NCBI GenBank assembly: GCA_021769545.1
Contig: JAETSS010000006.1
Span: 1 to 14,781 of the forward strand
DNA length: 14,781 nt
Reading direction: 5' to 3'
Origin: Eubacterium sp.
GTDB taxonomy: Bacteria; Bacillota_A; Clostridia; Peptostreptococcales; Anaerovoracaceae
Each line of letters begins with the position of its first letter. Position 1 is the stretch's first letter. The position numbers and the translations under genes are program-made. Positions 369 to 9,359 of this stretch are shown one piece after another. Below the pieces are notes generated by a model. That model ran no database searches, was not told the DNA's origin, and saw only the letters and a list, made by a program, of their open reading frames with translations.

Positions 369-3300
369 ATGAACAGCATTTACATAGACATCTTCAAAGC
401 CATCCACGAAGGAAAATGGCTAAAAATAGAATACAGGAACAGAGACGATCAGGTGACGAAATACTGGATAGGGATCCGTGACCTCGACCCGGTAAAGCGC
501 ACACTGGCAGTGGACGGGCTTCACCTGAGCAAATACACGACGGATTCCTACGACTATATATACATAGACTCCATCATAAGCTCGCAGATAGTGGAGGGGT
601 CGTATTATCCCGTAAACGAAGCGCTGACAGGCGACATAGACATGAACCCTCACAGATATAAAAAGCTGTTTGACAATACTGCCAATCTCAAGATATTGAA
701 CTATCTGGAAATGTGCAATAAGCTGGACTGCGTGCCGTACTATTCCAATTTCGAGCTGGTGCGGTATCTGGACGGTGAAAGCTTTGCAGGCGGCATATGC
801 AGTCTGGATGACGAGCAGTTCGCAACCATCGTGAAGCACTTTCAATACAAAATGTCCGAGAAGCCGTCGGCAGGAGGCAGGATCACCATCAAGCAGCTTG
901 CCATGAACGTATTGAGCATATACACCGAAAAAGGTCTGTACGTGCTGGCATACAGAAAGCTGCAGTTCGATGTAAAAAGCAGGGCGCTGCGTCCCGAGCC
1001 GCAGATCACCATATGCACCGAGTTCATGACGGGCGGGGCCAGGGAAAGCATAAGAAAGTATCTTGATGCAGATGAATATGAGCTGCTGGAGGATTTCGAA
1101 GCCAACCGTGAGACCATCGAAGACTGCATCATGAAAAATCTCGGGCGCAGGATGGAGCTGGATGACAGACCATATGTGATCGGTCTCGGCATGGATGTGG
1201 CTGTGGATCTGCACGGGGAATATCAGGCGATAATGGACATGTATCACGAGGACAGAGTCACCGTACCCATCAAGGCGTTTTTCGGCGATCTACTCAGCAG
1301 ACCGAGAAGGCGTAAATCCTATCCGATAATGCTGAAGGACAACAAGATCAACCTGGATCAGCTTCTTGCCATCAACAACGCCATGAAATATCCGGCGGCA
1401 TATGTACAAGGCCCTCCGGGCACCGGCAAGACCAATACGATAATAAATACCATCATAACAGCCTTTTTCAACGAGAAAACGGTGCTTTTCACATCCTACA
1501 ACAATTATCCAATCGACGGCGTGTTCAAAAAACTCATCACGATGAAATACAAGGAAAAGGACATTCCGTTCCCGGTGCTGAGGCTGGGCAACAGCGAAAA
1601 GCTCAGGGAAGCCATCGAATATATAAACGATATATACGACAGGGTCAAGGATATACCTATATACAGCGCTACCCTTGGCAGGAAAAAGGACGGCCGTATA
1701 GAACAGGCGAAAAAGCTGTCGGAGCTGCTGAAAAGCTATGAGGAGATCCTCGATCTTCGAGAGCGCCGGGAGACGCTGGCAAAGATGCTGGAGCATCAGG
1801 GCACAGATACGGAAAGCATGAGAACGGTGCTGTTCAGAAGCAGCCTGCAGAGTCAGCTTAAGAGTGTGGAAAGCAGGATAGAAGGGGCAGGCGAAATAAC
1901 GGACCGCGAGGCACTGGAACTGCTGGATCCGGATTTCGAACAGCTGATGCAGTATTTGTATTTCACATCGGCGGGATATATCAAAAAGCTGGGAAGCAGC
2001 AGATATGAAGACCTGCGGCAGATACTGAGCATGGAGGACGAAGAAAAGCAGCTGGCTGAGTTTTCCAAATACCTTAAGGACGAGGAAAATATCAGGAAGC
2101 TGTCAAAGGTCTTCCCTATCATGATCACCACCTGTATATCGGCCCATAAGCTGGGAGAGCCGACGCCTAAATTCGACATGGTCATAATGGATGAAGCCAG
2201 CCAGTGCAATACGGCGGTGGCGCTGGTGCCTGTCATAAGGGGAGACAGCCTGATGCTGGTGGGCGATCCGCAGCAGCTTAATCCGGTGATAATGCTGGAC
2301 GAAGCGGTAAACCGCAAACTGAGAAAGGATTACGACATAGCGGATGAATACGATTACAGGATGAATTCCGTCTATAAGACGTTCCTCGCCTGCGACGCCG
2401 TCAGCGACGAGGTGCTGCTGCGAAACCATTACAGATGCCATGAGAAAATAATAGGATTCAACAACAGGAAATATTACAATTCGAAGCTCAACATCTGCTC
2501 CGAAAGCCGGGAGCAGCAGCCACTTGTATATATAGATGTGCGCAATGAGCTGGCAGGAGTTAAGAAAAACACGGCTCCGGAAGAGGTGGACGCCATCATC
2601 CGGTATGCCGACCGCAACAGGGACAAGCAGATCGGAGTCATTACGCCATTCGTCAATCAGAAGCAGCTGATCGAAGAAGAGCTTAACGCTGCAAAGCTGG
2701 ACAATGTCGCCTGCGGGACGGTGCATGCTTTCCAGGGAGATGAAAAGGACGTGATACTGTTCTCCACGACTCTTACGGACAAAACCTACGCAGGTACCTA
2801 CAACTGGCTCAAAAACAACAAGGAGCTGATAAACGTCGCCACGTCCCGCGCCAGAGACAAGCTCATCGTCCTTGCCGACAGCAAAAACCTGAGCCGGCTC
2901 CACGATGATGAAGAGGACGATCTCTTCGAGCTGGTGGAGTATGTAAAGGAAAACGGCAATACCCAAGTGACGCGCAAAGAGGTGAATTCCAGGGCATTGG
3001 GAGTGAAGCCCTTCAGCACGAAGACCGAGGACACTTTCCTTAACACGCTGAATCACGCGCTGGAAAATATCTGGCAGTCGGGCAACCGATACAAGATAAG
3101 ACGCGAAGTGGCCATCGCCCACGTATTCGGCAAGGATGAAGCCGATAACGATCTGTTTTATTCCGGCAGGTTCGATTTCGTCGTATACGAAAGGCGAGGC
3201 GGCGCCGAGTACGCAGTTTTAGCCATAGAGCTGGACGGCAAGGAGCACTTCACCGACGAAGCCGTAAAGCGCCGCGACAGGAAAAAGGCAGAGATCTGCC

Positions 3301-3407
3301 GGGCGCACCAGATGGAGCTCATAAGAGTAGAGAACTCCTACGCCCGACGATACAATCATATCAAGGAAATATTGACGGATTACTTTTCCGTCAGGAAAAG
3401 GCAGTAA
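369..3407 (+). CDS. WYL-like / SF1 (Upf1-type) helicase / PD-(D/E)XK (DUF2726-like) nuclease fusion, 1012 aa
   Basis: Three modules are visible. Residues 1-85 resemble a WYL-type beta-barrel (KWLKIEYRNRDDQ, a DLDP turn, a long YIYIDSI strand), a fold that often senses ligands or nucleic acid. Residues about 335-850 are a superfamily 1 helicase: Walker A GPPGTGKT at 348-355, Walker B DEAS at 608-611, GDPQQ at 632-636, YRCH at 688-691, TVHAFQGDE at 784-792, and the arginine-finger motif ATSRARD at 824-830. The set is complete, so ATPase activity is expected; the order and the VHAFQGDE form fit the Upf1-like group. Residues about 885-1012 look like a PD-(D/E)XK fold: D936, then IELDGK with E954, D956 and K958, then a basic helix and LIRVE, as in DUF2726. 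The start has GGAGAA 8 nt upstream. The gene stands alone with its own terminator. The biological role is unknown; anti-phage defence or damaged nucleic acid processing is inference. Confidence 0.85.
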   Translation: MNSIYIDIFKAIHEGKWLKIEYRNRDDQVTKYWIGIRDLDPVKRTLAVDGLHLSKYTTDSYDYIYIDSIISSQIVEGSYYPVNEALTGDIDMNPHRYKKLFDNTANLKILNYLEMCNKLDCVPYYSNFELVRYLDGESFAGGICSLDDEQFATIVKHFQYKMSEKPSAGGRITIKQLAMNVLSIYTEKGLYVLAYRKLQFDVKSRALRPEPQITICTEFMTGGARESIRKYLDADEYELLEDFEANRETIEDCIMKNLGRRMELDDRPYVIGLGMDVAVDLHGEYQAIMDMYHEDRVTVPIKAFFGDLLSRPRRRKSYPIMLKDNKINLDQLLAINNAMKYPAAYVQGPPGTGKTNTIINTIITAFFNEKTVLFTSYNNYPIDGVFKKLITMKYKEKDIPFPVLRLGNSEKLREAIEYINDIYDRVKDIPIYSATLGRKKDGRIEQAKKLSELLKSYEEILDLRERRETLAKMLEHQGTDTESMRTVLFRSSLQSQLKSVESRIEGAGEITDREALELLDPDFEQLMQYLYFTSAGYIKKLGSSRYEDLRQILSMEDEEKQLAEFSKYLKDEENIRKLSKVFPIMITTCISAHKLGEPTPKFDMVIMDEASQCNTAVALVPVIRGDSLMLVGDPQQLNPVIMLDEAVNRKLRKDYDIADEYDYRMNSVYKTFLACDAVSDEVLLRNHYRCHEKIIGFNNRKYYNSKLNICSESREQQPLVYIDVRNELAGVKKNTAPEEVDAIIRYADRNRDKQIGVITPFVNQKQLIEEELNAAKLDNVACGTVHAFQGDEKDVILFSTTLTDKTYAGTYNWLKNNKELINVATSRARDKLIVLADSKNLSRLHDDEEDDLFELVEYVKENGNTQVTRKEVNSRALGVKPFSTKTEDTFLNTLNHALENIWQSGNRYKIRREVAIAHVFGKDEADNDLFYSGRFDFVVYERRGGAEYAVLAIELDGKEHFTDEAVKRRDRKKAEICRAHQMELIRVENSYARRYNHIKEILTDYFSVRKRQ

Positions 3408-3527: not shown

Positions 3528-4904
3528 TTATATCATCCCCTGCCTTTTCCAGCTCCTGAATTCCGTCAGCGCCAGCGTAAGGGCGATGATGAAGGAGCAG
3601 ACATCGGCAACAGGCGCAGCCAGCAGCGCTCCGTCAAGACCGAAGAAATACGCCAGTATTATGGAAAGGGGAATAAGGATGATGGCCTGTCTCGAAAGCG
3701 GTATCAGCAGCGAACGGGTGGATTTTCCGATCCCCTGGAAAAACGCCGAGGTGCTCATATGCAGACCGTAAACGAAAAACGCCAGCATATAATATCGGAA
3801 AAAGTGCTGCACGCAGTCGAGATACAGCTCATCACCTGTAACGAACAGCATTCCTATCTGACGCGGGAATATCTGATAGATAAGGAACCAGAAAACAGAT
3901 ATGGCGATAGCGATGGTGGCCGCCATCTTGTAGGTCTGCTTTACCCTGTCGTACTGTTTTGCCCCGAAGTTATAGCCGTGGATAGGCTGGGTAGCCGACG
4001 ACACTCCCACGAACATTGAGTGAGCGATCTGATATATCTTCATGATCATGCCGTACACGGAAAGCGCCATATCGCTGCCATATACAGTATGCGCGCCGTA
4101 TATCTGCATCAGATTGTTGGTGATGATCTGCACGGCTGCGGTAAGAAGCTGGGTTATGAGACTCGGGATTCCCAGAGCAAGTATCTGCCTGCTGCGGGCC
4201 CACGTCGGCCTGAGTGCGCTTTTTACGATATGGAAATTCTGCAGGTGTCTCATGTAACGCAGGCAGAGAAAGCCTCCTACCGCCTGACCGATGATGGTGG
4301 CGATCCCGGCGCCCACGACTCCCATTTTCAGCAGGAAAATAAACACCGGATCCAGCACCAGATTGATGACAGCACCCGCTATCATGCATTTCATTGTGTA
4401 TTGAGGATTTCCGTCGGCACGGATCAACGCATTGAGTGATGAACTGAACATCAGGAAAGGCAATCCCCAAATGATTATACGAGTATATGCGAGAGCATCA
4501 TCAAAGGACGTCTTCGTAGCCCCTAGCAGCTTCACCAGCTGAGGTGCAAAGACGGTACAGAGAACTGCCAGCAGAAGCGCGCTTCCGATGAGCAGTGTCA
4601 GTGCGTGGCTCGCGATCTTGTCAGCCTCCTCCGGCTGCTTCCTGCCAAGAAAAAGGCTTATGTTTGCCGCAGATCCGTCTCCTATCATAAGGGCAATGGC
4701 AATGGCGACGATGGTCAGCGGGAATGCTATGTTTGTGGCAGCCATTCCGGTGACGCCCACCCCCTGCCCGACGAAGATCTGGTCGGCGATATTATAAAGG
4801 TAGTTTACCATCAATGTGAGCGCCGTCGGTACGGAATATTTCAGTATCAGCTTTCCTATAGGCGCCGTTTCCAGCATATTAGTAGTTGATGTTTCCTGTT
4901 TCAT
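3528..4904 (-). CDS. MATE-family transporter under FMN riboswitch control, 458 aa
   Basis: The protein is a polytopic membrane carrier of usual MATE length with about twelve hydrophobic segments. The first carries VNYLYNIADQIFVGQGVG, the typical N-terminal MATE signature, and the last includes GLDGALLAAPVADVCSF. MATE proteins exchange cations for drugs or metabolites across the cytoplasmic membrane. I chose the start MKQETSTTN because AAGGAG (plus 4913-4918) sits 8 nt before it. A longer frame reaching 5012 would start inside the riboswitch terminator hairpin and has no ribosome binding site. The leader contains an FMN aptamer, so the substrate is probably a flavin, a flavin precursor or a flavin analogue. 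E. coli YeeO, another MATE protein, is reported to export flavins. The direction of transport here cannot be read from sequence. Confidence 0.9.
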   Translation of the reverse strand: MKQETSTTNMLETAPIGKLILKYSVPTALTLMVNYLYNIADQIFVGQGVGVTGMAATNIAFPLTIVAIAIALMIGDGSAANISLFLGRKQPEEADKIASHALTLLIGSALLLAVLCTVFAPQLVKLLGATKTSFDDALAYTRIIIWGLPFLMFSSSLNALIRADGNPQYTMKCMIAGAVINLVLDPVFIFLLKMGVVGAGIATIIGQAVGGFLCLRYMRHLQNFHIVKSALRPTWARSRQILALGIPSLITQLLTAAVQIITNNLMQIYGAHTVYGSDMALSVYGMIMKIYQIAHSMFVGVSSATQPIHGYNFGAKQYDRVKQTYKMAATIAIAISVFWFLIYQIFPRQIGMLFVTGDELYLDCVQHFFRYYMLAFFVYGLHMSTSAFFQGIGKSTRSLLIPLSRQAIILIPLSIILAYFFGLDGALLAAPVADVCSFIIALTLALTEFRSWKRQGMI

Positions 4905-4997: not shown

Positions 4998-5055
4998 CAG
5001 TTGAAATTTCACGGAAACAAAGATAGCAAAAACATCCTATCACAATGAAAGAAAG

Positions 5056-5162
5056 CTTTCTTCTCCCGTCCAGACTGTCTGTTGGCCCCGGAATTTCACC
5101 GAGTTGGCTTTTGGCTCGCGGGCTGTCACCGCCAGTAGAGATTATCCCATTTCCGAAGAAAA
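5056..5162 (-). promoter_or_regulatory. FMN riboswitch aptamer (RFN element)
   Basis: On the minus strand the conserved blocks occur in the expected order: CTTCGG, TACTGGCGGTGA, AGCCCGCGAGCC, CGGTGAAATTCCGG, GCCAACAG, AGTCTGGACGGGAGAAG. P1 is formed by TTTTCTTC (plus 5155-5162) and GAAGAAAG (plus 5056-5063), eight pairs with one G-U. The first hairpin has a GGGATAATCTC core instead of the usual GGGTGAAATTCCC, a mild departure. It lies about 150 nt upstream of the MATE start and is followed by a terminator. Confidence 0.93.
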
Positions 5163-5175
5163 TATATTTTTCTTT

Positions 5176-5204
5176 ATGGTAACACGGGAAATTGCCATAG
5201 TCAA
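5176..5204 (-). promoter_or_regulatory. Sigma-A-like promoter for the riboswitch-MATE transcript
   Basis: On the minus strand a -35 TTGACT (plus 5199-5204) and a -10 TACCAT (plus 5176-5181) are separated by exactly 17 bp. Transcription would start near 5169, a few bases before the P1 helix of the aptamer, which is where a riboswitch leader should begin. Confidence 0.65.
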
Positions 5205-5254: not shown

Positions 5255-5280
5255 CCGATATTGAAAGCGCAGGATATCGG
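5255..5280. other. Inverted repeat beside the 73-bp array
   Basis: CCGATAT at 5255-5261 and ATATCGG at 5274-5280 are perfect complements around 12 nt. There is no T-run. The element lies between the MATE promoter and the first unit of the repeat array and may be an operator or a chance hairpin. Confidence 0.4.
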
Positions 5281-5297
5281 AAGGTGTGGACGGGCGC

Positions 5298-5558
5298 ATT
5301 CCAAAGAAATCGACTCTCAAGCCGTTCATTTTTGGAATTTTACCCCCTAACATGCCGGTTTCGCAGGGGAATTCCAAAGATATCGGGTGCAGACGCTGTG
5401 ATCTTTGGAAAAAACGAGGTGAAATCACGTTGACCGGTGACTTATTCCAAAGAACAATGTCTTATGAGCTGATATTTTTGGAATCGACAGCCCCAGACTA
5501 GTCCATAAGCGCTTAAATTCCAATAATCGTGCGCCTTTACATAAAAAATTTTGGAATT
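5298..5558. repeat. Four-unit, 73-bp-period array of paired inverted arms
   Basis: ATTCCAAAGA starts at 5298, 5371 and 5444, and the variant ATTCCAATAA at 5517: three intervals of exactly 73 bp. The opposite arm ATTTTTGGAA starts at 5328, 5401 (ATCTTTGGAA), 5474 and 5547 (AATTTTGGAA), always 30 bp after the first arm and again at 73-bp intervals. The bases between arms (20 nt) and between units (33 nt) show no clear similarity. Each arm pair can fold into a hairpin of 8-10 bp, with a G-U pair in units 1 and 3 if read as plus-strand RNA. 73 bp is close to seven helical turns, so all units would face the same side of the DNA. No fifth unit is recognisable at 5225 or 5590. The array lies between the divergent MATE and hsp20 promoters. 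Function unknown; phased protein-binding sites are my preferred reading. One further TTTTGGAAT lies at 6272-6280 before the J-protein gene. Confidence 0.9.
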
Positions 5559-5592
5559 ACCCGTAAACAATCCGAAAAAAATTTTAAAATTG

Positions 5593-5619
5593 TTAGCACT
5601 CACTATTGACGAGTGCTAA
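5593..5619 (+). promoter_or_regulatory. CIRCE operator (HrcA binding site)
   Basis: TTAGCACTC (5593-5601), nine bases, GAGTGCTAA (5611-5619): a perfect match to the CIRCE consensus bound by the heat-shock repressor HrcA. It overlaps the -35 element and spacer of the hsp20 promoter, so bound HrcA should block RNA polymerase. hrcA itself is not in this window. Confidence 0.97.
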
Positions 5620-5634
5620 CAATCGTGATATTAT
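5606..5634 (+). promoter_or_regulatory. Sigma-A promoter of hsp20
   Basis: -35 TTGACG (5606-5611), 17-bp spacer, -10 TATTAT (5629-5634). Both hexamers match the consensus at five of six positions. Transcription would start near 5641, leaving a leader of about 93 nt. The 3' half of CIRCE lies in the spacer. Confidence 0.85.
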
Positions 5635-5733: not shown

Positions 5734-6156
5734 ATGTTGATGCCAAGCTTATTTACAAAAGATTTATTTGATGACTTTTTCGATCCACACTTTTACGGAC
5801 ACGACCGCAATCAGGATCTGATGAAGACGGATGTTAAGGAGACCGAGAAAAACTATGAGCTGATGATGGATATCCCGGGGGTGAAAAAGGATGATCTGAC
5901 TGCAGAGCTCAAGGACGGATATCTGACAGTGAGCGCATCTACAAGTCACGACAATGACGAGAAGGATGCGGACGGCAGATATATCAGAAGAGAGCGTTTC
6001 AGAGGAAACTTCAGCCGCAGCTTCTATGTAGGGGAGCAGCTCACCGAGGAAGAGATCAAAGCGAAGTTCGAGGACGGAGTTCTGAAACTGACCATCCCTA
6101 AGCAGACCGAAAAACCGGCTGTCGAGGAAAAGAAATACATTGCAATCGAGGGTTAG
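5734..6156 (+). CDS. hsp20: Small heat-shock protein, Hsp20/alpha-crystallin family, 140 aa
   Basis: An ATP-independent holdase that binds unfolding proteins as an oligomer in the cytoplasm. Residues about 31-123 form the alpha-crystallin domain: TDVKETEKNYELMMDIPGV at the start, a variable acidic loop (DNDEKDADG, 73-81), RRERFRGNFSRSFYV, and the signature GVLKLTIPK at 115-123. The C-terminus carries an I-A-I (136-138) motif that would dock into a neighbouring subunit. The start has a full AAAGGAGG 8 nt upstream. It is transcribed from a CIRCE-controlled promoter and followed by a strong terminator, then by a J-protein gene that could pass held substrates to DnaK. No missing residues or unusual features in the protein. 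Confidence 0.96.
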   Translation: MLMPSLFTKDLFDDFFDPHFYGHDRNQDLMKTDVKETEKNYELMMDIPGVKKDDLTAELKDGYLTVSASTSHDNDEKDADGRYIRRERFRGNFSRSFYVGEQLTEEEIKAKFEDGVLKLTIPKQTEKPAVEEKKYIAIEG

Positions 6157-6216: not shown

Positions 6217-6309
6217 CATGGCAGACGAAAAGCATCGGTGGGGTCCTCGTGAGGGGACGTATATACCGTAGTTTTGGAATCGGCTTAACTTTGCAGGGGA
6301 GGTGTTAGT

Positions 6310-7332
6310 ATGGCTGACAGAGATTATTACAAGGTATTAGGGGTAGAAAGATCGGCGGGTGCGGATGCCATCAAGAAGGCGTACCGCAAGCTGGCGAAGA
6401 AATACCATCCCGATGCCAACTCCGGCGATCCGTCGGCGGAGAATATTTTTAAGGAGATAAATGAAGCATACGAGATATTGGGTGATGAGGAAAAGCGCAG
6501 GCTTTATGACAGATATGGGGCGATAGCTTTCGAGCCGGGATTTTCAGAGGATGCTGCCGAGGCGGCGGAAAGGCAGTACCGCAGCGGGGGCAGAGGATTT
6601 TACGGCAGAGGGTCTTCGGGCGGCCGATATTCCGATGGGAGTTATGAATTCCATTTTGACGGAAAAAACGGAGCGGAGTTTTTCGGCGATATTTTCAGCG
6701 ATCTATTCGGAGGCGGCATGGGCGCTGCGGGGTCTTCATGGGCCCGGGGCTCCGGTGACAGCAGCGCGTATGGCCGATATTCCTATGGCGACATGCCTGT
6801 CAGGGGAAACGACGTTGAAGCGGATATCACCGTAGGCTTCGATGAAGCGGCGCTGGGCGGCGAGCGGGTATTCAGGTTCAGAAATGAGCAGAGCGGTACT
6901 TTGGAAAACATAAAGCTGCACATACCGGCAGGCGCCGACACGGGCACACGCATCCGGGTAAAAGGCAAGGGCGGCCCGGGAATAAACGGCGGGGCCGACG
7001 GGGACCTGTATTTGAAGGTCAATGTGGAGAAAAAGCCGGGCTATGAACGAAAGGGCCAGGACATCTATTCCACGATAGATATCCCCTATACCACGGCAGT
7101 CCTGGGCGGCAAAGCGCGGGTGCATACTTTGCATGGCGATGTGATCTGCAAGATAAAGGAAGGGACTCAGTCGGGAACCAGGATCAGACTTAAGAACAAA
7201 GGCGTGGTTTCCATGAAGGACAGCTCGAGATTCGGCGACCAGTACGTTACCGTGCAGATAAAGGTCCCAAGGAAGCTTACGCCCGAGGCGAAGCGCAAGC
7301 TGGTGGAATTTCAGAAGGCGGCGGGCTGTTAG
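6310..7332 (+). CDS. Class B (CbpA-type) DnaJ co-chaperone, 340 aa, no zinc finger
   Basis: The J-domain occupies residues 5-70 with the invariant HPD at 33-35, needed to stimulate DnaK ATPase. A glycine-, serine- and aromatic-rich linker follows (about 92-163, with many Gly-Arg and Gly-Ser-Ser patches). Residues 165-320 are the two C-terminal substrate-binding barrels ([54 protein letters not shown]). The four CxxCxGxG repeats of true DnaJ are absent, so this is a CbpA-like class B protein rather than the DnaJ of the dnaK operon. AGGGGAGG (6295-6302) lies 7 nt before the ATG. A hairpin and one TTTTGGAAT copy precede the gene; I see no strong promoter in 6217-6309. Work with the adjacent Hsp20 in disaggregation or refolding is inferred from proximity. 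Confidence 0.93.
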
Positions 7333-7442: not shown

Positions 7443-9359
7443 TTATTCTGCCTTATATACCAGCTTTCCTCCGAAGTAGGTCCTTTCAGGTGCAAAGTTC
7501 TGAAGATCTTCGACACCTGCGTCTCTAATATTCATATTCATGAGAAGCACATCTGCATATTTTCCGACTTCGAGAGTTCCGATCTCATCGTCCATGTTGA
7601 TGGTCTTTGCTCCATTGATGGTGGATGCATTGAGAGTCGTGTCGATGTCCAGCGCTTCCTTCCAGTCCTTGAGAGGTCCTATCAGCTTCACGTTTTCATT
7701 ATCGGCAGGATCCTGAGATATCGACTGGTCGGTAGTCCTCTTGTAATCCTTGGTGTCCTCTCCGTACCACAGATCGAATATCTTCTGAGGCAGGGTACGA
7801 GTCAGTGCGCTGTAGTAGAGCCATCCCATATCAGGCTTCGTTACCACATAGTCCGAATGGAACGCCACGTTTATGCCTTTGTCCTTGAGGCTCGTCATCG
7901 GATACTGGGTATCCAGCTTTTCCTGACTTGCCATCAGCGGCAGATATACATCCCAGTAATAATCGTCCATTACTGCCCAGTACGGTGCAACGATGGCTGC
8001 AACGCCCATTTCCTTCATGCGGTTCTGATCCTCTTCGTTGATGAACTGGCAGTGAGCGAAGCATACTCTGTTTTCCTTCATCTCAGGGTGCTCTGCTACT
8101 ACAGGTTCCAGTTCGTCAAGTGCAAAGGTTGCAGCTGCGTCTCCGATCTGGTGTATATGCAGGTTGAGGTCGTTTTCCGCAGCGTAGTTGAATACGTTGC
8201 GCATCATGTCGCCTTTGCCTGCCCAGATGTTGTTGCTTTCGATATCGCCGTCCTTGAGAACGCCGTCTGCATACATACCTTCACTCATGTAGGCGGTACC
8301 TTCTTCAAGCACCTGGTCGGACATGATCTTGATTGTAGTGATCTTGTAGTTGTCATTGCCGCTTAAGGATTCTGCCTTTTCGATCCATTCGTCCATGTAG
8401 GCCTTGCATTCATCCCAGGTATCGAAGTCGTAAGGCTGTACCCAGAAGGAGCCTCTTACGCGGAATTCCAGGCTTCCGTCTGCTGCCATTTCGGACATGG
8501 CGGTCCAGTAGTTTTCGGAAGTTTCCTCGCCCATTGTCAGGATGCCTGCGTCAAATGCAGATGTAAAGCCCAGGCTCGACAGCCATTCCTGTTGATCCTT
8601 TATGGCTTCCTTGCACTGATCGACGGTGTATACGGGCTTCAGGTCGGAAACGAGATTTCCCGCTGCTTCCTTAAGGTGTCCCGTCGGCTCTCCGTTCTTG
8701 TCTACTACGATACGGCCGCCGTTTGCCTGATAGTTGGCGTTGTATTCAGCGGCGAAGGCCTTGTCTATGCCGCATTCTTCAAGAGCTTTGGAATTAGCCC
8801 AGTATGCGTGGCCGTCTACCTCCTGCAGAACTACAGGCTTGTCATCGCATACTTCGTCGATGATATCCTTGGTAGGGCTTCCGTTTTCAAAAGCGGAGAC
8901 CATCCAGCCTGCTCCTGCATAAACGTCAAGGTCAGGATTTTCCTCGATAAAGTCACTGATGATATCCTGCATATCCTTGATTTCAAGGACGTCGGCAAGG
9001 TCTATCTCGTACTTTGCCTGCAGTGCCGTGGAAAAATGCATGTGGGCTTCCGTCATGGCAGGCATTACGGTTTTGCCTTCGGCATCGATGACCTCCGTGT
9101 CATCTCCGTCGAATTCCATTGCGCCTTTATCATCTCCCACATAGGCTATCTTGCCGTCCTGCAGCACTACTGCAGTAGCGTCGCCATTGTCGCCTGCAAC
9201 CTCAAGGTCTGCATTGGTGATGATGGTCGTCGAGGCTGTTTTTTCTTCTCCGCTTTCTTCGTTTGAACAGCCTGACATGGTAAATACTGTGACAAGCATA
9301 ACGATCATAAGGGGAACGAGTACCCTGATCATTTTCCTGTCTGTCATAAGTCGTTTCAT
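7443..9359 (-). CDS. Lipoprotein amidohydrolase, YtcJ-like (amidohydrolase family 3), 638 aa
   Basis: Residues 1-31 are a lipoprotein signal: basic start, hydrophobic core RVLVPLMIVMLVTVF, lipobox M-S-G-C with the lipidated cysteine at 31. The enzyme should therefore sit on the outer face of the membrane. The rest is a metal-dependent TIM-barrel hydrolase of the YtcJ group: H106-M-H108 metal site, VDGHAYWANS, IKIMSDQVLEEGTAY, H403-Q-I-G-D, FAHCQF with H436, FHSD with D503, and the closing LEVGKYADVLLM barrel strand. All expected metal ligands appear present. Family members hydrolyse C-N bonds in amides, cyclic amides or imines; the substrate here is unknown. GGAGGT (plus 9369-9374) supports the first ATG. 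It is the last of three minus-strand genes and has its own extended -10 promoter. YtcJ relatives are often cytoplasmic, so the lipid anchor is notable. Confidence 0.9.
   Translation of the reverse strand: MKRLMTDRKMIRVLVPLMIVMLVTVFTMSGCSNEESGEEKTASTTIITNADLEVAGDNGDATAVVLQDGKIAYVGDDKGAMEFDGDDTEVIDAEGKTVMPAMTEAHMHFSTALQAKYEIDLADVLEIKDMQDIISDFIEENPDLDVYAGAGWMVSAFENGSPTKDIIDEVCDDKPVVLQEVDGHAYWANSKALEECGIDKAFAAEYNANYQANGGRIVVDKNGEPTGHLKEAAGNLVSDLKPVYTVDQCKEAIKDQQEWLSSLGFTSAFDAGILTMGEETSENYWTAMSEMAADGSLEFRVRGSFWVQPYDFDTWDECKAYMDEWIEKAESLSGNDNYKITTIKIMSDQVLEEGTAYMSEGMYADGVLKDGDIESNNIWAGKGDMMRNVFNYAAENDLNLHIHQIGDAAATFALDELEPVVAEHPEMKENRVCFAHCQFINEEDQNRMKEMGVAAIVAPYWAVMDDYYWDVYLPLMASQEKLDTQYPMTSLKDKGINVAFHSDYVVTKPDMGWLYYSALTRTLPQKIFDLWYGEDTKDYKRTTDQSISQDPADNENVKLIGPLKDWKEALDIDTTLNASTINGAKTINMDDEIGTLEVGKYADVLLMNMNIRDAGVEDLQNFAPERTYFGGKLVYKAE

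Follow-up and report, generated by a model that had tools for sequence, protein, structure and literature searches.

A 260-bp array of eight putative half-sites, arranged with exact spacing, occupies the intergenic region between a MATE-family transporter gene and hsp20 at 5298-5557 of the window, by which we mean the whole stretch of 14,781 nucleotides that was analyzed. With a probability of roughly 0.58, we take these half-sites to be recognized by one dimeric or bridging DNA-binding protein and the array to belong to a dispersed, BIME-like class that is architectural or element-borne. Arrays of the same architecture, built from other words, recur in relatives, where they are dispersed and differ by whole units. 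According to the model that we propose, a single sequence-specific dimeric or bridging protein would occupy all eight half-sites, and the period of about seven helical turns would place same-sense half-sites on the same side of the helix, such that several dimers could line up along, wrap or loop ~260 bp of DNA. We infer the binding, as well as the identity and function of the protein, from the pattern. The class itself would be intergenic and confined to some Clostridia, with a common geometry, a lineage-private arm word and units that are gained or lost whole. Since the arrays of relatives are scattered among unrelated genes, the likeliest role would be architectural, in the nucleoid or in supercoil domains, or else element-borne, rather than the control of hsp20. 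In titles and abstracts, taken from best-ranked matches that include few subscription journals, we found no description of such arrays in Clostridia. If the reading is true, helix-phased arrays with swapped words, independent of BIME/REP, would show that geometry itself is selected, and the array could serve as bait for its putative DNA-binding protein.

Geometry and setting of the array

Read directly from the sequence, the eight half-sites share the consensus ATTCCAAARAW and form four inverted pairs. The A arm starts at 5298, 5371 and 5444 as ATTCCAAAGA and at 5517 as ATTCCAATAA; the B arm starts at 5328 and 5474 as ATTTTTGGAA, at 5401 as ATCTTTGGAA and at 5547 as AATTTTGGAA. In each series, the three successive steps all measure exactly 73 bp. 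Taken as strandless units of two inverted half-sites around 20 bp, the array consists of ATTCCAAAGA and ATTTTTGGAAT at 5298-5338 (unit 1), ATTCCAAAGA and ATCTTTGGAAA at 5371-5411 (unit 2), ATTCCAAAGA and ATTTTTGGAAT at 5444-5484 (unit 3), and ATTCCAATAA and AATTTTGGAAT at 5517-5557 (unit 4), and the gaps between inverted arms measure 20 and 32 bp. The array statistic, which counts the occurrences of a 6-mer, in either orientation, that are in phase at one period, was computed over the 721-bp MATE-hsp20 interval and compared with 2,000 dinucleotide-preserving shuffles. Four copies of TTCCAA and four of TTGGAA fall on a common period of 73 bp, an observed value of 8 versus a shuffle maximum of 5. 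The bare copy number of one 6-mer is ordinary (221 of the shuffles had at least eight), and it is thus the common period that exceeds chance. When the units are aligned in register, the arms are identical at 17-22 of 23 positions, versus 10-16 of 50 for the filler; filler identity is at the random level, and the filler retains its length throughout the four units. Tandem Repeats Finder did not report the array, and a matrix derived from the eight half-sites recovered no fifth unit, its next-best match in the window lying inside a coding gene at 8783.

It is evident that much of the original prediction was accurate. The arm positions and triple 73-bp steps that it gave are those read here, and the conserved arms and spacing around diverged filler that it described are reflected in the identities above. 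It also correctly set the array apart from CRISPR, which has near-identical direct repeats of ~24-40 bp separated by unique spacers, whereas the conserved parts here are only 10-11 bp and alternate in orientation. The divergent stress and flavin promoters that it placed around the array are likewise present, as promoter-like sites on both sides and an FMN riboswitch on the minus strand.

To the left of the array, a promoter-like site recognized by consensus match only (5176-5204, minus strand) precedes an FMN riboswitch (5054-5164, minus strand; Rfam match to RF00050), which forms the leader of the MATE gene (3528-4904, minus strand; the frame is open from 5012 and the likely ATG at 4904 is an inferred start). 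The pairing of riboswitch and transporter suggests a flavin-related substrate. Further left, an SF1 helicase gene with a C-terminal DUF2726 domain (369-3407, plus strand) resembles the PADLOC models MkoA and PDC-S37. To the right, on the plus strand, a sigma-70-type promoter-like site (TTGACG-17-TATTAT, 5606-5634, consensus match only) lies 5' of hsp20, the gene for a small heat-shock protein (5734-6156), which is followed by dnaJ (6310-7332); 48 bp separate the end of the array from the -35-like hexamer. By sequence match, the hsp20 promoter-like site is overlapped by a perfect plus-strand CIRCE operator, TTAGCACTC-N9-GAGTGCTAA, at 5593-5619. This HrcA operator shares the intergenic region with the array, yet it is a separate element with unrelated words and is probably independent of it. 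The window DnaJ has one 97% relative, which is taken to come from a metagenome assembly, and then relatives at 73-78%; among 61 genomes searched, its best match reached 64%.

Recurrence of the architecture with other words

The window's own word is scarce elsewhere. Its three-arm pattern matched once among 297 genomes (G053), its pair pattern was found in 6 of 145 genomes, with adjacent pairs only in G343 (72 bp apart), and the strict pair ATTCCAAARA...TTTTTGGAAT occurred in 1 of 391 genomes (G548), as a solitary copy. No longer array of this word was present in any of these three sets of 297, 145 and 391 genomes. Dispersal of the exact word within the window's own genome would nevertheless be expected under our reading. 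An origin from a phage or plasmid was considered and rejected, as 5270-5600 had no blastn match in either collection searched. No viral contig encoding the window DnaJ was found, and 18 viral-contig matches to the three-arm pattern were taken as chance, a stricter pattern having given none. Four of these 18 viral contigs (L087, L089, L100 and L101), which are apparently one sequence, carry at the loosest 6-mer test a two-unit TTTGGA/TCCAAA arrangement with a period of 79.

A word-independent detector, which accepts any arm word and requires exact 6- or 7-mers (and hence misses decayed arrays), was applied to the 80 hsp20 loci kept for comparison, 73 of which have at least 450 bp upstream. Arrays were detected at two of the 80 loci, versus none in 800 shuffled loci (ten dinucleotide shuffles of each). 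The shuffles are the valid control; reversed sequences are unsuitable for this purpose, as inverted pairs survive reversal, and the two matches obtained on reversed sequences were the same two loci. The first, L027 of an Acetatifactor sp. MAG (genome G366), has five TACTGTA/TACAGTA units with a period of 73/74 bp downstream of hsp20, and the second, L048 of a Lachnospiraceae MAG (genome G514), has three TGCTAC/GTAGCA units stepping 63/73 bp, also downstream of hsp20. Two MAG lineages of the Lachnospiraceae thus carry this architecture, built from other words. A two-unit array at a third hsp20 locus, L026, was found by pattern and missed by the detector. Two further detector matches, L073 (78 bp, GC-rich) and L007, were dropped as repeats of another look.

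Genome-wide, these arrays form dispersed families. G366 contains 45 exact TACTGTAA/TTACAGTA pairs, versus 0 for a reversed-pattern control, with 113 half-sites at no more than one mismatch and 11 dispersed TACTGTAA arrays of period 72-75. G514 contains 15 TGCTACR pairs (the control gave 2 at the wide gap and none at the narrow one) and five dispersed arrays, each of which steps 73 and then 62 bp, with half-site intervals of 31, 42, 31, 31 and 31-32 bp in all five. The neighbors are unrelated genes in both genomes, and the arrays lie, for example, between tandem (L126), convergent (L127) or divergent (L133) genes in G366 and between convergent (L162) or divergent (L168) genes in G514. Reading frames that overlap G366 arrays reach 166 codons in one case (L135) and no more than 96 in the rest. 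The arm words appear to be private to their lineages in the genomes compared. Among 145 genomes around G366, TACTGTAA pairs occur in three, namely G366, G367 and G365, the last with a solitary pair. TGCTAC pairs occur in 26 of 145 genomes around G514; outside G514 there are 1-3 per genome, which is the control level, and none are adjacent among the matches listed. The detector found no arrays in samples totaling 1.2 Mb from three genomes and ~0.5 Mb from six more, which indicates that the class is not general. In viral contigs, we found no TACTGTAA arrays; with a looser TGCTAC pattern, at least five contigs among the viral matches listed have two- or three-copy chains at 54-68 bp.

Several comparisons bear upon how these arrays change. 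The orthologous site that lies 3' of hsp20 comprises five units in G366 and two in G367, and the units within several G366 arrays resemble one another. In G366, the array at L128 4824-5158 matches that of L130 at 90%, and the match stops 3 bp outside the first arm and 1 bp outside the last. In two other duplicated pairs the similarity extends into the flanks (L128 and L129 over 501 bp, and both L134 arrays over 434 bp), and consequently exact arm-to-arm copying is demonstrated in a single pair. Two related G366 arrays adjoin a perfect 26-bp palindrome, ACGACCCTCCAAATTTGGAGGGTCGT (L128 4787-4822 and L129 4766-4801). In G514, filler identity was 46-55 of 131 in six of ten comparisons and 73, 78, 87 and 117 in the others. 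In most G514 elements the similarity continues beyond the outer arms, into a left flank resembling GGTTCAAATGCCTAAA and a right flank resembling TTTTCGTCATTT, which gives a repeat of ~205 bp and implies a common origin; the elements compared are those of L156, L159, L162, L165 and L168, with the flanks around 1409-1427 and 1600-1612.

The spacings are a further shared feature. The 73-bp period of the window array is close to seven helical turns. A second G367 array (L395 363-715) has an ACTGTAA word; most of its half-site intervals are 21, 31-32 or 41 bp, close to 2, 3 and 4 turns, and its same-sense spacings are 53, 73, 52 and 72 bp on one strand and 53, 72, 52 and 73 bp on the other. These spacings leave out the leading half-sites 363, 395 and 416 and the far half-site 895; the omitted half-sites contribute extra same-sense steps of 53, 11 and 64 bp. 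Collectively, the spacing classes of 52-53, 62 and 72-74 bp are near 5, 6 and 7 turns at 10.5 bp per turn, and a fit to this helical repeat as good as that of 52.5/62/73 is reached by only 0.39% of random triples, in a post hoc test that covers three spacing classes and leaves out a G343 period of 86. The latter belongs to a two-unit array and corresponds to no whole number of turns. In G366, half-sites 29-31 and 43-44 bp apart are not exactly 3 and 4 turns, though the period fits seven. Judged post hoc, same-sense spacings are mostly near 5, 6 or 7 helical turns. The original prediction's period of about seven turns is echoed by relatives that have other arm words and periods of 72-75 bp, and its proposal of a selected geometry gains from the other spacings of relatives (52-53 and 62 bp), which differ by about whole turns. 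Its suggestion of a dimeric or architectural protein is likewise supported, insofar as constrained arms and spacing point to putative DNA-level sites.

Comparison with known array classes

Among the bacterial interspersed mosaic elements (BIMEs), which are clusters of REPs, BIME-2 bind DNA gyrase. BIME/REP arrays in general are described, as far as one account extends, as regularly spaced alternating sites that are intergenic and dispersed, with some unrelated inter-site segments and variable unit number (PMC2817692). The arrays here are likewise regularly spaced, alternating and intergenic. However, their conserved words are 7-11 bp, compared with imperfect hairpin-forming palindromes of 20-40 bp; ATTCCAAARAW and TGCTACR are not palindromic, and the G366 word TTACWGTAA is palindromic over only 9 bp. 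They also differ in having no GTAG/CGTC-tagged palindrome. These tags are absent from ATTCCAAARAW and TTACWGTAA, and although GTAG is contained in CGTAGCA of G514, no palindrome adjoins it. A spacing close to whole turns of the helix also sets the arrays apart from BIME/REP. REP copy number usually exceeds 100 per genome, and G366 has the 113 half-sites mentioned above versus 30 half-sites in exact pairs in G514. REPINs are portrayed in another source as dispersed inverted pairs at a constant distance, 71 bp in one class, that also cluster in tandem (PMC3116915). All of these traits are found here as well, but in REPINs, which are tied to RAYT transposases, each REP end is a conserved 16-mer that could fold into a hairpin. 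In these two accounts, palindromes are essential to BIME/REP arrays, which are also associated with RAYTs (PMC2817692, PMC3116915). A Y1-transposase match occurs once in G366, beside a TnpB-like frame recognized by eye and with no arrays flanking it, and none occurs in the 1.8 Mb assembly of G367. Identity as RAYT-driven REP was rejected on palindrome and tag. The array thus works like a BIME, yet is not REP/BIME by either feature.

TIGR arrays, the repeats of TIGR-Tas, consist of short alternating repeats and variable spacers according to what their description covers (PMC12045711). Their units of ~36 nt contain repeats of 8-12 nt and spacers of 9-12 nt, in contrast to the gaps of 20 and 32 bp here, and they adjoin a tas gene. 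Nine window proteins and ten proteins adjacent to G366 arrays had no Pfam match to the Nop family, for which Tas may be too divergent. A TIGR identity was rejected on spacer length.

Alternative readings and a candidate partner

A broader possibility, which we regard as tentative and rather doubtful, is that these dispersed intergenic arrays constitute a new class of bacterial chromosomal element in which only short, lineage-private words recognized by a protein and 5/6/7-turn spacing are selected while the filler varies freely, with COG1373 ATPases as candidate partners. Turnover of words between lineages would then be expected of a fast-diversifying DNA-binding protein. The partner is suggested by the AAA_14-DUF4143 ATPases, which we take to be COG1373; they would be a lead from the sequences of relatives rather than a result about the window. 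In G343, two ATTCCAAA units 72 bp apart start ~40 bp upstream of an AAA_14-DUF4143 gene, and two further genes of this type have their own inverted pairs (73 and 86 bp). At least three copies of a 9-mer occur within 350 bp upstream of 14 of 30 such genes (3/13 and 11/17 by sequence group), versus 13 of 155 other genes, a set that includes G366 array loci; controls without these loci give 7/92 (Fisher p 7e-6). A smaller version of the control set, with 137 genes, leaves out frames open at the end. Moreover, one G366 AAA_14-DUF4143 gene sits between two TACTGTAA arrays.

The stronger proposal, in which the window array itself is bound by a COG1373-type ATPase and has become separated from the gene for it, is nonetheless unlikely. 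None of the nine window proteins scanned is an AAA_14-DUF4143 protein, and neither the other three G366 genes nor the single G514 gene is close to an array of the dispersed word; the dispersed arrays, which adjoin one of four such genes in G366 and not the G514 gene, were accordingly rejected as operators of these genes. A two-unit upstream detector scored 2/12 and 0/17 in the two groups versus 6/966 controls, a set that also includes the G366 array loci, and five of the six control matches are G366 arrays. In G343 controls alone, at least three copies were found upstream in 4 of 23. Private upstream repeats often accompany AAA_14-DUF4143 genes, as among those of L446, L447, L450, L451 and L452 (G343) and L420, L434 and L441 (G366). 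Such repeats are direct or inverted, and their words differ from gene to gene. PADLOC labels three of the proteins PDC-S01, presumably a candidate defense label, and a sequence search with one of the proteins yielded no solved structural relative. The arrays would offer a test of the function of these ATPases.

It is also improbable that the array is a dedicated operator, through which a transcription factor controls hsp20, the FMN-MATE transcript or both. The position of the array in the gap between two divergent promoter-like sites, both consensus matches, is what one would expect of an operator. However, at the detector sensitivity used, none of the 73 hsp20 upstream regions contains an array, whereas CIRCE (at most three mismatches) is present in 65 of them, which indicates that conserved control of hsp20 does not include the array. 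At 6269-6282, a few tens of bases 5' of the dnaJ start, there is a lone half-site, TTTTGGAATCG, though it is outscored by the coding-gene match at 8783. Arrays are also found beside hsp20 in L026, L027 and L048, but all three lie downstream of the gene, and their proximity was not counted as evidence because the loci had been chosen for holding hsp20. The remaining G366 and G514 arrays adjoin unrelated genes. The original prediction had tied a regulatory role to the hsp20 and MATE promoters and had proposed comparing orthologous hsp20 upstream regions; there, no array was detected in any of the 73 and CIRCE was kept in 65. It had also held that a dispersed family with no positional preference would make such a role unlikely, and a family of this kind is what relatives contain. 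The role is consequently not supported.

An old, decayed tandem duplication, with arms that survive by chance or through recent conversion, seems more improbable still. Whole-unit differences at the orthologous G366/G367 site and the likeness of units within several G366 arrays would be natural outcomes of duplication. Against this, the window array combines random filler of a constant length in four units with arms agreeing at 17-22 of 23 positions, a combination that points to selection, and the five G514 copies keep their 73/62 steps though the filler has diverged in most comparisons.

Finally, the window array is very unlikely to be transcribed as four RNA hairpins within a structured sRNA or leader, an alternative raised in the original prediction and now disfavored: all four pairs can form stems and the plus-strand fold surpasses 200 of 200 shuffles (z -3.2; minus strand, 193 of 200), but with the arms fixed, 38 of 150 filler shuffles (plus) and 88 of 150 (minus) fold as well, such that the filler adds nothing to RNA folding. 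Furthermore, no compensatory change was seen in the arms, the arrays have no Rfam match, and whole-turn spacing has no obvious meaning for an RNA. The MFE fold also hinted that unit 2 sits within a large hidden palindrome, a reading that was rejected, since filler complementarity was approximately at chance (lowest p 0.051 in nine comparisons). The G514 arrays, counted with near copies C17 and C54 included, also argue for DNA-level sites over hairpins. At the base after TGCTAC, the strand listed first has A.C in 5, G.U in 4 and Watson-Crick pairs in 6 of 15 units; A.C and G.U swap on the opposite strand, which leaves A.C in 4 of 15 units there, and neither strand pairs throughout. Across the G514 pairs, the inner six bases of the arms are invariant, a feature that is neutral between DNA and RNA.
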